From the NCBI GenBank assembly GCA_024401415.1, contig JAKSLC010000006.1, positions 1-45,657 of the forward strand: 45,657 nt of DNA, given 5' to 3'. Both the position numbers and the translations under genes were made by a program. Below, piece after piece: positions 13,648 through 25,470 of this stretch. Source of the stretch: Bacteroidales bacterium. GTDB lineage: Bacteria; Bacteroidota; Bacteroidia; Bacteroidales; Marinilabiliaceae. The notes beneath the pieces are model-generated. The model worked only from the letters and a program-made list of their open reading frames with translations. It had not been told where the DNA came from and did not search any database. Position 1 is the first letter of the stretch; every line of letters starts with the position of its first letter.

Positions 13648-13655
13648 TAACTTTG
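13648..13655 (+). promoter_or_regulatory. -7 element (TAACTTTG) of the nhaC-tadA-DUF3108 operon
   Basis: Exact TAnnTTTG match, 31 bases before the ATG at 13686. It makes the in-frame TTG at 13653 an impossible start. Confidence 0.65.
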
Positions 13656-13685
13656 CTCAAGTGTTCAAAAGACTTTCATATTTAC

Positions 13686-15098
13686 ATGAAACAACAACAA
13701 ATCCCTTTCATAATCGCACTTATTCCGCTAATAGTGTTAATAATACTACAAGCGTTCATCATCTCATCATTTGGATCCAGCGCCCTTGACGGAGCCAGTC
13801 AGGTTGGGCTTCTTGTTACTTCGGCAGTAGCTGTATTAATAAGCGTATGCTTTTACAGATTTGACTATTCTGGATTTGAAGAAGCTATATCGAAAAGTAT
13901 TTCCAATGTCTCGACAGCGATAGTGATGCTCATGCTGATAGGTTCGCTAAGCGGCACATGGATGATAAGCGGAATAGTACCATACCTTATAAACGAAGGA
14001 TTACACATAATATCGCCTATAATATTTCTCCCCACCACATGTATACTTTGCGCTCTGATATCCATTGTGACAGGATCATCGTGGACCACAGTTGCAACGA
14101 TAGGCATTGCACTAATAGGAGTAGGTCGTGCCAACGGCTTTGACGACGGATGGACGGCGGGAGCCATAATCAGCGGAGCGTACTTCGGAGATAAGATGTC
14201 TCCTCTATCAGACACGACAGTTTTAGCCTCATCGACAGTAGGGACGCCCCTATTTGAGCACATAAAATACATGACAAAGACAACAGTACCGACAGTTGTC
14301 GTGACCATACTTATATACGCTGTAGCCAGTCTACTGATATCAGGCAGAGAAGAGAGTGACATAAACGCATACGTAAACGGCATTAATTCAACATTCAATA
14401 TATCCCACTGGCTACTAATAGTACCTGTGCTAACCGGGCTAATGATATACAAAAAGATACCTGCGATACCCGTAATGTTCTTTGCTACCCTACTTGGCGT
14501 TGCGACATCATTGATACTCCAAAGAGACATACTTATACAGATAGGCGAAGGAGACATATTCAAAGGGACGATGACAAGCGTATTTGGCGCTACCAACATT
14601 TCGACAGGCAACGAAGAGCTAGACAACCTTGTCTCCACGGGCGGAATCGCAGGAGTAATGAACACTATATGGCTAATAATATGTGCCATGGTATTTGGCG
14701 GAGTCATGACAGCAGGAGGATTCCTACGCGTCATAATGGAGAAGATAGTATCTGCAGCCAAAAAGACATGGAGCCTTGTTGCTTCTACTGCTGCGTCAGG
14801 CATCATTCTCAACGCTATAACCTGCGACCAATACCTGGCAGTAATACTTACCGGATCGCTATTCAAAGACAAATACAAAGCAATGGGGCACAAACCGAGG
14901 CTATTAAGCAGAAGTATAGAAGACGGGACCACGGTCACGTCTGTACTAGTGCCATGGTCGACCTGCGGCATGACCCAAGCGACCGTACTAGGAGTAGCTA
15001 CTATAACATACCTTCCATACTGTTTTTTCAACTATTTATCCCCAATAGCAACGATTTTGCTGAGTATACGTATTAAAGGGAAATCTCATGAAACATGA
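13686..15098 (+). CDS. nhaC: Na+/H+ antiporter, NhaC family
   Basis: This 470-aa protein has about 11-12 membrane helices. Family landmarks are 'TGSSWTTVATIGIALIGVG', 'GAIISGAYFGDKMSPLSDTT' and the late 'EDGTTVTSVLVPWSTCG' repeat-like motif. It exchanges Na+ for H+ across the inner membrane, or Na+-linked substrates in some relatives. The TGA stop overlaps the tadA start (ATGA), so translation is coupled; it is the first gene of a three-gene operon. The use of TGA as a real stop here matters for interpreting tadA. Confidence 0.93.
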   Translation: MKQQQIPFIIALIPLIVLIILQAFIISSFGSSALDGASQVGLLVTSAVAVLISVCFYRFDYSGFEEAISKSISNVSTAIVMLMLIGSLSGTWMISGIVPYLINEGLHIISPIIFLPTTCILCALISIVTGSSWTTVATIGIALIGVGRANGFDDGWTAGAIISGAYFGDKMSPLSDTTVLASSTVGTPLFEHIKYMTKTTVPTVVVTILIYAVASLLISGREESDINAYVNGINSTFNISHWLLIVPVLTGLMIYKKIPAIPVMFFATLLGVATSLILQRDILIQIGEGDIFKGTMTSVFGATNISTGNEELDNLVSTGGIAGVMNTIWLIICAMVFGGVMTAGGFLRVIMEKIVSAAKKTWSLVASTAASGIILNAITCDQYLAVILTGSLFKDKYKAMGHKPRLLSRSIEDGTTVTSVLVPWSTCGMTQATVLGVATITYLPYCFFNYLSPIATILLSIRIKGKSHET

Positions 15099-15532
15099 TG
15101 GACGACACATACTACATGAAAGAGGCCCTCAAGGAAGCGCATAAAGCCATGGAAGCCGATGAAGTTCCCATTGGAGCGATAGTAGTATGTAACGGGACGA
15201 TAGTAGGCAGAGGCCACAACCAGACCGAAATGCTATCAGATGTAACTGCACATGCAGAGATACTTGCGCTTACAGCTGCGACACAAACTCTAGGCGGCAA
15301 GTACTTGAACGACGCTACTATGTATGTAACTGTAGAACCATGAACGATGTGCGCGGGGGCGTTAGCTTGGGCGCAATTAGGAAGGCTAGTATATGGAGCA
15401 TCAGACGAAAAACGAGGATACGCCAGACTAAGTCCCAGTCCACTACACCCCAAGACAGAAGTCACACGAGGACTAATGGAAGCAGAGTGCAAAGAACTGG
15501 TACTACGATTTTTCAGCAACAAACGACGATGA
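15095..15532 (+). pseudogene. tadA: tRNA adenosine deaminase with in-frame TGA at a Zn-ligand Cys codon
   Basis: Reading through one TGA at 15341-15343, the frame gives a full ~145-aa TadA. It has 'EVPIGAIVV', 'GHNQTE', the catalytic 'HAE' in 'TAHAEILAL', then 'VTVEP-(TGA)-TMCAGALAW' and 'KTEVTRGLMEAECKELV'. The family motif is PCxxC; the TGA stands exactly where the first Cys (a zinc ligand) belongs, one base away from TGC or TGT. All other key residues and the whole downstream frame are intact. TadA converts A34 of tRNA-Arg(ACG) to inosine and is normally essential. Options are a recent nonsense mutation, an assembly error, selenocysteine, or read-through. No convincing bacterial SECIS hairpin is seen just downstream. 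It overlaps nhaC and the next gene by 4 bases each. Confidence 0.9.
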
Positions 15533-16347
15533 ACAAAACACTACTAATCATAACTATTGCAGTAACACAAATCCTCGCCTTACATGCAAGTGCGCAATGC
15601 GTAGAGCACAACAGGACTACAAAACCTGGAGAGTGGGCTCACTACAACGCCTACTACAATTGGCACTTCATTTGGATGAACGCTGCGGATGTGTACTTCA
15701 ACACGCAAGCAATAAGCGATGATCTTCTTCTAATAGAATCCACCGGCAAAACGAAATCGGGCTATGATTGGTTTTTCAGTGTACGAGACACATTCCAGAC
15801 GGTAGTAGAGAGAGCTACTCTGAGGCCCAAAATATTCAGACAAGCGAACTATGAAGGAAAGACCACCACAATCAGCAACTACGAATACGATGCTACAGCG
15901 AGAACCCTCAGTGCCATATCTACACAGAAAAAAGGCAACAAAAAAAGCAATAAGACAACATTTAACGGAGAGTGGGACCTGTGCGCCGCAGACGTACTAA
16001 CCATGGTATACAAAGCGAGAAACATAGACTTTGAGAACTACGAACCTGGAGACACCATACCAATGTCCCTCATAATAAATTCAGAAATATTCGACCTTTT
16101 CATCAGATATCACGGCAAATCGCAAGCCTCCACACGAGACGGCAGAACATACGAATGCTTAAAATTCACACCACTTTTAGTAGAAGGCACCATCTTTTCC
16201 GGGGGAGAAGATATGACAGTATGGGTTACTGACGATGAAAACAGGGTGCCAATAGTAGTTGAAGCCAAAGTGCTAATAGGCAGTGTCAAAGCGATACTTG
16301 ACGAAGTTAAGGGCACACTATCTCCGCTCAAAGAAATAGGAAAGTGA
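15529..16347 (+). CDS. DUF3108 exported protein
   Basis: This 272-aa protein has a signal peptide (MNKTLLIITIAVTQILALHASA-Q). The ATG overlaps the tadA stop (ATGA). The 'GEWAHYNAYYNWHFIWMNAA' run, 'YDWFFSVRDTFQTVVE' and the final 'VPIVVEAKVLIGSVKAILDE' are typical of DUF3108 proteins, periplasmic beta-rich proteins of unknown role. An alternative ATG at 15340, which overlaps the tadA TGA, is in the same frame and open through to this gene; it would add 63 residues that hide the signal peptide, so I do not use it. Third gene of the nhaC operon. Confidence 0.85.
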   Translation: MNKTLLIITIAVTQILALHASAQCVEHNRTTKPGEWAHYNAYYNWHFIWMNAADVYFNTQAISDDLLLIESTGKTKSGYDWFFSVRDTFQTVVERATLRPKIFRQANYEGKTTTISNYEYDATARTLSAISTQKKGNKKSNKTTFNGEWDLCAADVLTMVYKARNIDFENYEPGDTIPMSLIINSEIFDLFIRYHGKSQASTRDGRTYECLKFTPLLVEGTIFSGGEDMTVWVTDDENRVPIVVEAKVLIGSVKAILDEVKGTLSPLKEIGK

Positions 16348-19682: not shown

Positions 19683-20369
19683 ATGGAAATTAAAAAGACT
19701 CCTAAGGCGGACCTTGAAAACAAGAAGTTGTTGTTCAACGAGATTGGCCTCGCGCTAGTTCTCCTCGGATGCTACCTAGCATTTGAGTGGAGCACAAAGG
19801 CAGCAGAGATCAACGTTGACGCAATGGTTGACGAGGTTGTCGTTGAAGATGAGATGGTTCCAATAACCAAGCAGGAGGAGGTTAAGCCACCTCCACCACC
19901 TCCACCACCAAAGATGGCAGAGGTTCTTACCATCGTAACAGATGATACAGAGATTAATGACGATCTTGAAATCTTCGATACCGAGGACACAGATGAGCGT
20001 GAAATCGTTTATCAAGAGGTTGAGGTAAAGGAAGAGGAAGAAGAGGAGGTAGAGGAAGTATTCGTAATCGCAGAGCAGATGCCTGCATTCCCAGGTGGCG
20101 ATGTAGAATTGCGTAAGTTCCTTGCTCAGTCAGTTAAGTATCCTGTGATTGCACAGGAGAACGGCATCCAGGGTCGTGTATTCGTATCATTCGTTGTAGA
20201 CAAGACAGGATCAGTAACAAATGCAAGAGTTGCTCGTGGTATTGATCCAAACCTCGACAAAGAGGCACTTCGCGTGGTAAATTCCATGCCTAAGTGGACA
20301 CCTGGTATGCAACGTGGTAAACCTGTAAAAGTATCTTACACTGTACCTATCAACTTCGTGTTGCAGTAG
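19683..20369 (+). CDS. tonB: TonB family energy transducer, paralogue 1
   Basis: This 228-aa protein has the classical TonB order: short cytoplasmic N-terminus, one membrane anchor (~21-36), a proline run at 69-76, a very acidic linker (~105-125, including six consecutive Glu), and the TonB C-terminal domain (~133-228) with 'MPAFPGGDVELRKFLAQSVK', 'GRVFVSFVVDKTGSVTNARV' and 'MPKWTPGMQRGKPVKVSYT'. It couples the inner-membrane proton gradient to outer-membrane receptors. No exbB/exbD genes are nearby. It has its own terminator and a close paralogue directly downstream. Confidence 0.93.
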   Translation: MEIKKTPKADLENKKLLFNEIGLALVLLGCYLAFEWSTKAAEINVDAMVDEVVVEDEMVPITKQEEVKPPPPPPPPKMAEVLTIVTDDTEINDDLEIFDTEDTDEREIVYQEVEVKEEEEEEVEEVFVIAEQMPAFPGGDVELRKFLAQSVKYPVIAQENGIQGRVFVSFVVDKTGSVTNARVARGIDPNLDKEALRVVNSMPKWTPGMQRGKPVKVSYTVPINFVLQ

Positions 20370-20633: not shown

Positions 20634-21323
20634 ATGGAAACAAAGAAAACCTCTAGAGCGGACCTAGAAAACAAGAAAGGTCTATTCACGGAGATAGGAT
20701 TAGTAGTAGCACTAGTGGCATGTTTCACAGTATTTGAATGGTCTACTACAGCGGCGGAAATCAACATCACTGGATTGACAGAGCCTTTGGTTCTTGAGGA
20801 CCCGATCATGGTTCCTATTACACGCATTGAAACGCCGACTCCACCCCCACCACCAGCACCGAAGATGGCGGAAATAATCAACATAGTTGAAGACGATGCT
20901 ATTCTTGAAGAAGAACCTGACTGGGGATCTTCAGAGGCTGGAGAAGACGATATTATCAACTTCACAACCATTGAAGTCAAGCCAGAAGAGACAGAAGAGG
21001 ACGACACAGAGATTTTAATCTTTGCGGACCAGATGCCTGTATTCCCTGGAGGCGAGTCGACACTTCGCAGATTCCTTGCAGAATCTGTGAAATACCCAGC
21101 CATTGCCTTAGAGAGCTGTATACAGGGACGAGTATTCGTTTCTTTCGTAGTTGACAAAAATGGCGACGTTACAAACGTAAAGATAGCACGAGGCGTTGAC
21201 ACTTCACTAGACAAAGAAGCAATACGTGTAGTACAATCTATGCCAAAGTGGACACCTGGCATGCAGAGAGGCAAAGCAGTAAGAGTTGCCTACACTGTAC
21301 CAATCAACTTCGTTTTGAAGTAA
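20634..21323 (+). CDS. TonB family energy transducer, paralogue 2
   Basis: This 229-aa protein parallels paralogue 1 over its full length: 'RADLENKKGLFTEIGLV' anchor region, 'PTPPPPPAPK' proline stretch, acidic linker, and the C-terminal TonB domain ('MPVFPGGESTLRRFLAESVK', 'MPKWTPGMQRGKAVRVAYT'). The C-terminal domain is far more conserved than the linker, which suggests that both contact the same kind of receptor but differ in reach. Separate terminators and a distinct upstream palindrome suggest the two genes are controlled separately. Confidence 0.93.
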   Translation: METKKTSRADLENKKGLFTEIGLVVALVACFTVFEWSTTAAEINITGLTEPLVLEDPIMVPITRIETPTPPPPPAPKMAEIINIVEDDAILEEEPDWGSSEAGEDDIINFTTIEVKPEETEEDDTEILIFADQMPVFPGGESTLRRFLAESVKYPAIALESCIQGRVFVSFVVDKNGDVTNVKIARGVDTSLDKEAIRVVQSMPKWTPGMQRGKAVRVAYTVPINFVLK

Positions 21324-25392: not shown

Positions 25393-25464
25393 GGTCGGTT
25401 GGATGAGTGGCTTAGTCTACGGTCTGCAAAACCGTCTACAGCAGTTCGAATCTGCTACCGACCT
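25393..25464 (+). tRNA. tRNA-Cys (anticodon GCA)
   Basis: The acceptor arms GGTCGGT / ACCGACC pair perfectly, with the Cys-specific discriminator U at 25464. The anticodon stem is ACGGT / ACCGT with loop CTGCAAA (anticodon GCA at 25426-25428). The T-arm is AGCAG-TTCGAAT-CTGCT. CCA is not encoded. It reads UGC and UGU, not UGA, so it would not by itself decode the TGA in tadA. Confidence 0.97.
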
Positions 25465-25470
25465 CGAAGA

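Follow-up and report, generated by a model that had tools for sequence, protein, structure and literature searches.

Organization of the tadA locus

The window, as we call the whole 45,657 nt stretch of DNA that was analysed, is contig 173 of a draft genome (G000; 2.74 Mb in 216 contigs, 86.7% complete). It carries a gene for TadA, the tRNA-Arg adenosine-34 deaminase, which is interrupted by one TGA codon. The features on which the account below draws are as follows.

13653..15098, plus strand: nhaC-like antiporter gene upstream of tadA (359.7 bits, below the NhaC cut-off of 370)
15095..15532, plus strand: tadA, from its translation, the matches of its two pieces to Pfam and NCBIfam models and its identity to the G010 relative
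15251..15259, plus strand: HAE motif, codons 53-55, from the translation
15341..15343, plus strand: in-frame TGA as codon 83, in place of the first PCxxC Cys, from the translation and the codons of relatives
15347..15349, plus strand: ATG in frame with tadA downstream of the TGA, encoding the PCxMC Met and a conceivable restart, from the sequence
15350..15352, plus strand: codon 86, TGC, the intact second zinc Cys, from the translation
15529..16347, plus strand: DUF3108 gene downstream of tadA (PF11306, 130.9 bits)
25393..25465, plus strand: tRNA-Cys(GCA), identical over 72 nt to those of the relatives G010, G013 and G009

The tadA frame opens with the ATG at 15095 and closes with the TGA at 15530-15532, and its translation is intact and conserved save for the one in-frame TGA. 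The stop of the nhaC-like gene overlaps the tadA start, and the tadA stop overlaps the start of the DUF3108 gene, in each case as ATGA; the same two genes flank tadA in G010, G013 and G009. The 82 residues before the TGA match PF14437 (80.5 bits) and PF00383 (74.4 bits), both over the Pfam cut-offs, as well as the NCBIfam TadA model NF008113 (E-value 3.1e-21), while the 62 residues after it match NF008113 (E-value 1e-8) and score 25.4 bits with PF14437, slightly below the cut-off of 27; taken alone, each piece scores below the whole-protein cut-off of NF008113. The TadA models are thus matched on both sides of the stop, and the likeness to the family (NF008113; PF14437) takes in the whole length of the sequence, the HAE motif, the second zinc Cys and the C-terminus. 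The difference is that TGA replaces the first zinc Cys, such that the HAE and PCxxC zinc site is incomplete, with HAE and the second Cys in place. We take the HAE motif to provide a zinc-binding His and the catalytic Glu.

Both the translation and the family matches agree with the first-pass annotation in describing a tadA that is otherwise conserved and has its TGA exactly at the first PCxxC Cys, and apart from this codon the gene is undamaged. The coincidence of a stop with a zinc ligand is probably less striking than it sounds, since Cys codons are one base away from TGA and since a nonsense codon at any position of this small gene would also have been noticeable. The in-frame ATG (15347-15349) is separated from the TGA (15341-15343) by three bases, rather than the six given at first. 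A second ATG (15340-15342) overlaps the TGA in another frame and starts an open frame of 335 codons (15340-16347) that runs into the DUF3108 gene; in G010, G013 and G009 this frame is interrupted by stops, and its openness in the window looks fortuitous. Elsewhere in the window, two adjoining genes (19683-20369 and 20634-21323) are about 60% alike, with the relatives of each matching both, and are possibly the products of an old tandem duplication.

Comparison with related genomes

The closest relative of the tadA product is that of G010 (91% identity over 145 aa), with nucleotide differences concentrated at the third base of codons (11, 7 and 71 at positions 1, 2 and 3 respectively); among the best 80 loci from a collection of named genomes, the closest belongs to a Bacteroidales metagenome-assembled genome from horse faeces (85% identity). 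A tadA match (E-value up to 1e-25) was found in 58 of the 61 genomes searched, G000 included, and the three lacking one are more distant, sharing only the order. No internal stop is present in any of the 57 matched relatives outside G000; two of these matches are partial (residues 2-117 and 2-93), yet both span codon 83. Over 110 loci, made up of 30 from the genome search (G000 included) and the 80 best from the named collection, with G009 occurring in both, codon 83 is TGT in 58, TGC in 48 and TGA in the window alone, with three unscored. The question raised earlier, whether close relatives have TGY here, is therefore answered in the affirmative for 106 of the 110 loci, and the three closest relatives all have TGT.

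Synonymous change is saturated in these tadA comparisons and thus only dN is useful. Between the window and G010, dN is 0.067 after the TGA and 0.029 before it; the corresponding values are 0.125 and 0.049 with G013, and 0.131 and 0.089 with G009. In comparisons of the relatives with each other the second half is also the faster (second and first halves 0.136 and 0.063, 0.114 and 0.107, and 0.103 and 0.067). By these substitution patterns the part of tadA after the TGA shows no decay, which implies that the stop is young, an error, or tolerated.

Decoding of TGA

The use of TGA was surveyed in 491 kb of the window genome (18% of it: the window, 20 further stretches and five more), using 145 conserved ORFs with at least 50% identity in sampled stretches of G005, G009, G010 and G013. 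Positions with Cys in a relative carry TGC 252 times, TGT 289 times, another codon 78 times and TGA once, the single TGA being that of tadA. Among 134 scored genes, the stop is TAA in 97, TAG in 19 and TGA in 18, and release factor RF2 is encoded in the genome (438.5 bits; cut-off 370). The tRNA-Trp is identical to that of G013, the one genome with which it was compared, and ARAGORN called no tRNA with a TCA anticodon among the 26 tRNA matches in this incomplete draft. The first-pass annotation had regarded global TGA-to-Cys recoding as unsupported, and with 541 TGY codons to one TGA, and TGA ending 18 of 134 genes, that judgement is borne out.

Matches over cut-off to tRNA-Sec, SelB and SelA were each found in none of the 15 genomes of the genus; in 14 control genomes the same searches found them in five, two and one respectively. 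All 15 genus genomes contain sub-threshold tRNA-Sec matches (best 41.6 bits; cut-off 47), of which ARAGORN identifies the top one in G000 as a tRNA-Leu, and sub-threshold SelB matches (best 196.5; cut-off 242.25), which we infer to be other translational GTPases. A SelA match below threshold occurs only in G010 (18.1; cut-off 267.9), and SelD, sought in the window genome only, gave a single match of 57.3 bits (cut-off 125); the search for selA, selB, selC and selD that had been proposed thus gave nothing in favour of selenocysteine. There is no Rfam match up to an E-value of 10 in 15300-15480, and the RNA at the TGA folds unremarkably (60 nt, z −0.47, with 59 of 200 shuffled sequences folding at least as well; 50 nt, z −1.06), so that neither Rfam matching nor folding z-scores point to a SECIS-like structure 3′ of the TGA. 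The weak 5-bp stem noted previously, and considered not to be a typical SECIS, does exist within this ordinary 60 nt fold.

Arginine decoding and the search for a second tadA

The substrate of TadA, tRNA-Arg(ACG), is encoded in the genome, as would be expected of one with this enzyme; ARAGORN, run on the tRNA loci, reports two copies of it and one of tRNA-Arg(CCG). It is matched in all 15 genus genomes, is 100% identical in G010, G009 and G013, each of which also has two copies, and has an anticodon loop reading TTACGGC. The two G000 genes (L151:1501-1574 and L152:1006-1079) are identical, lie on separate contigs and have at least 16 upstream bases in common. Arginine CGN codons in the 145 conserved ORFs comprise 867 CGT, 427 CGC, 243 CGA and 34 CGG. 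From the tRNA genes and codon counts, arginine decoding looks built for inosine.

TadA is described as essential in E. coli in PMC3711424, which also describes Mollicutes without it. An E. coli TadA mutant in which tRNA editing is almost nil is reported to show no significant growth difference in minimal medium (PMC13170351), and genuine loss of TadA is thus not unthinkable. If the TGA is real, the window genome resembles those Mollicutes in having a disabled tadA, but differs in having kept tRNA-Arg(CCG) and two tRNA-Arg(ACG) genes and in that the rest of tadA shows no decay.

It had been suggested that a second intact tadA would mark the interrupted copy as an error or an ordinary pseudogene; none was found in the 86.7% complete draft. 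Three other genes with a deaminase fold were considered. One (C88) has an intact PCPMC but scores 85.4 bits with a TadA cut-off of 150, and is presumably GuaD-like; the others are RibD (C165) and a dCMP-deaminase-like piece (C107).

Other lone stops in the draft

In-frame stops counted without strict filters included many false rows from antisense ORFs. A strict test was applied that called for a single stop, lying in the 10% to 90% range of the alignment and flanked on either side by 30 residues of which at least half are identical. Of 140 ORFs from the window genome it flags two, namely tadA and a gene in stretch L170, and the number remains two among the 145 conserved ORFs after five stretches were added; a further candidate, L173, fell out under the filter. 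Lowering the identity threshold to 35% (162 ORFs) brought in L171 and L295, both of which were set aside: 14 stops interrupt L171, and the TGA of L295 stands at position 152 of 154. The L170 gene (14711-12837, minus strand, contig 2 of G000) is otherwise intact and has its lone TGA at a conserved Gly; its relative in G013 has 619 aa, 76% identity and Gly at the TGA position, and the two halves of the L170 gene itself weakly match, below cut-off, models of lipoteichoic acid synthase and of phosphoglycerol transferase.

The same test in the sister genomes flags 1 of 239 ORFs in G010, 0 of 321 in G013 and 1 of 310 in G009. The G010 and G009 rows (L242 and L163) were dropped as wrong-frame readings because their differences fall at codon position 1 (12, 0 and 2, and 8, 0 and 0, at positions 1, 2 and 3), leaving 0 of 870, or 2 of 870 if they are kept. 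By Fisher's test, the excess of lone stops in the window genome has a P value of 0.020 (2/145 against 0/870), which becomes 0.10 with the two dropped rows kept and 0.14 without tadA, the gene that prompted the test. These figures hint that the draft carries more scattered single-base nonsense changes than its sisters do, as a weaker consensus would.

Origin of the interrupted tadA

We favour the explanation that this is an ordinary and recently functional tadA in which a Cys codon has undergone a single-base nonsense change, present as a consensus error, a minority allele or a very recent nonsense allele; we put its probability at roughly 0.85. The change is probably an incorrect base in the consensus of the draft, arising either by error or from a minority strain variant, and a real, very recent nonsense mutation is possible though rather unlikely. 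If the base is real, RF2 would read the TGA as a stop and yield an 82-residue fragment that has neither zinc Cys and is predicted to be without deaminase activity. Support for an error or recent mutation comes from the sequence comparisons: 106 of 110 loci have TGY, the three nearest relatives all having TGT; the 57 matched relatives are free of internal stops; and the part after the TGA shows no decay. Similarly, the two tRNA-Arg(ACG) copies and the 427 CGC and 243 CGA codons are what continued deamination of A34 would lead one to expect, and the lone TGA at a Gly codon in L170 of the same draft fits scattered single-base errors. Against this, the excess of lone stops in the draft is weak, and both of them are TGA, which read-through would also predict. 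Of the possibilities offered by the first-pass annotation, an error or fresh nonsense mutation is the one best supported, read-through and a split enzyme have gained no positive support, and selenocysteine is contradicted by the lack of over-cut-off matches to its machinery in the genomes searched, the ordinary fold and the TGY of relatives.

Low-level read-through of a real TGA, in which a near-cognate tRNA lets enough full-length TadA be made, would account for the conserved part after the TGA, the retained substrate tRNA and the use of TGA in each of the two lone mid-gene stops sampled. The zinc site would be preserved only if Cys were inserted. With RF2 present, no suppressor change in tRNA-Cys (identical to those of three relatives) or in tRNA-Trp (identical to that of G013), no TCA-anticodon tRNA called in the incomplete draft, and a TGA that is not common to the relatives, we regard this as improbable. 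A stricter form, in which the TGA is fixed, TadA is made only by Cys-inserting read-through without selenocysteine machinery, and the L170 gene is a second client, is very improbable. In a narrow literature search, no titles were found on selenocysteine or read-through in TadA. Selenocysteine as a zinc ligand has in its favour that the TGA stands at a Cys position, but it would require the Sec genes to lie in the 13% that the draft lacks, although none were found in the sister genomes; with tRNA-Sec, SelB and SelA over cut-off in none of the 15 genus genomes, the one SelD match of the window genome below its cut-off, no Rfam match or unusual fold around the TGA, and no relative sharing it, its probability is vanishingly small. 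Genome-wide reassignment of TGA, to Cys or another amino acid, is as remote and is already contradicted within the sampled 18% of the genome. Its likeness to known bacterial cases, in which UGA is reassigned to Trp or Gly (PMC8629427), is an in-frame TGA in a conserved gene, here two such genes; unlike those cases, there are only two lone TGAs in 145 ORFs, rather than many at one kind of residue, and they fall at unlike residues, Cys and Gly, while TGY prevails at relative-Cys positions, TGA still terminates genes and RF2 is kept, with no TGA-reading tRNA among those called in the incomplete draft.

Two further proposals would accept the TGA as a stop. If it is real and fixed, the lineage might live without TadA and read CGN codons with an unmodified A34. 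This would be in keeping with the failure to find a second tadA in G000 and with the Mollicutes precedent and the nearly unedited E. coli mutant reported to grow normally in minimal medium (PMC3711424 and PMC13170351), but not with the lack of decay past the stop, the retention of tRNA-Arg(CCG), the unchanged substrate tRNA or the description of E. coli TadA as essential (PMC3711424), and we consider it very unlikely. A split enzyme, with residues 1-82 and a piece restarted at the ATG at 15347 together forming an active deaminase, draws on that ATG being in frame and three bases past the TGA; since both pieces would lack the first zinc Cys, and since the Met is the usual one of PCxMC and is present in the relatives too, it is scarcely credible. 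Self-editing of the stop by TadA was also considered and rejected: UGI would be read as Trp and not Cys. In addition, the A of the TGA lies outside the UACG motif given in PMC13170351.

Should the stop be real and the enzyme nevertheless made, read-through of a stop codon would be needed to express a gene described as essential in E. coli; with a real stop and no enzyme, A34 deamination would be missing from a gut bacterium whose CGN decoding is normal. On present evidence, the interrupted tadA is mainly a caution that recoding or selenocysteine can be mimicked by a single nonsense base in a draft assembly.
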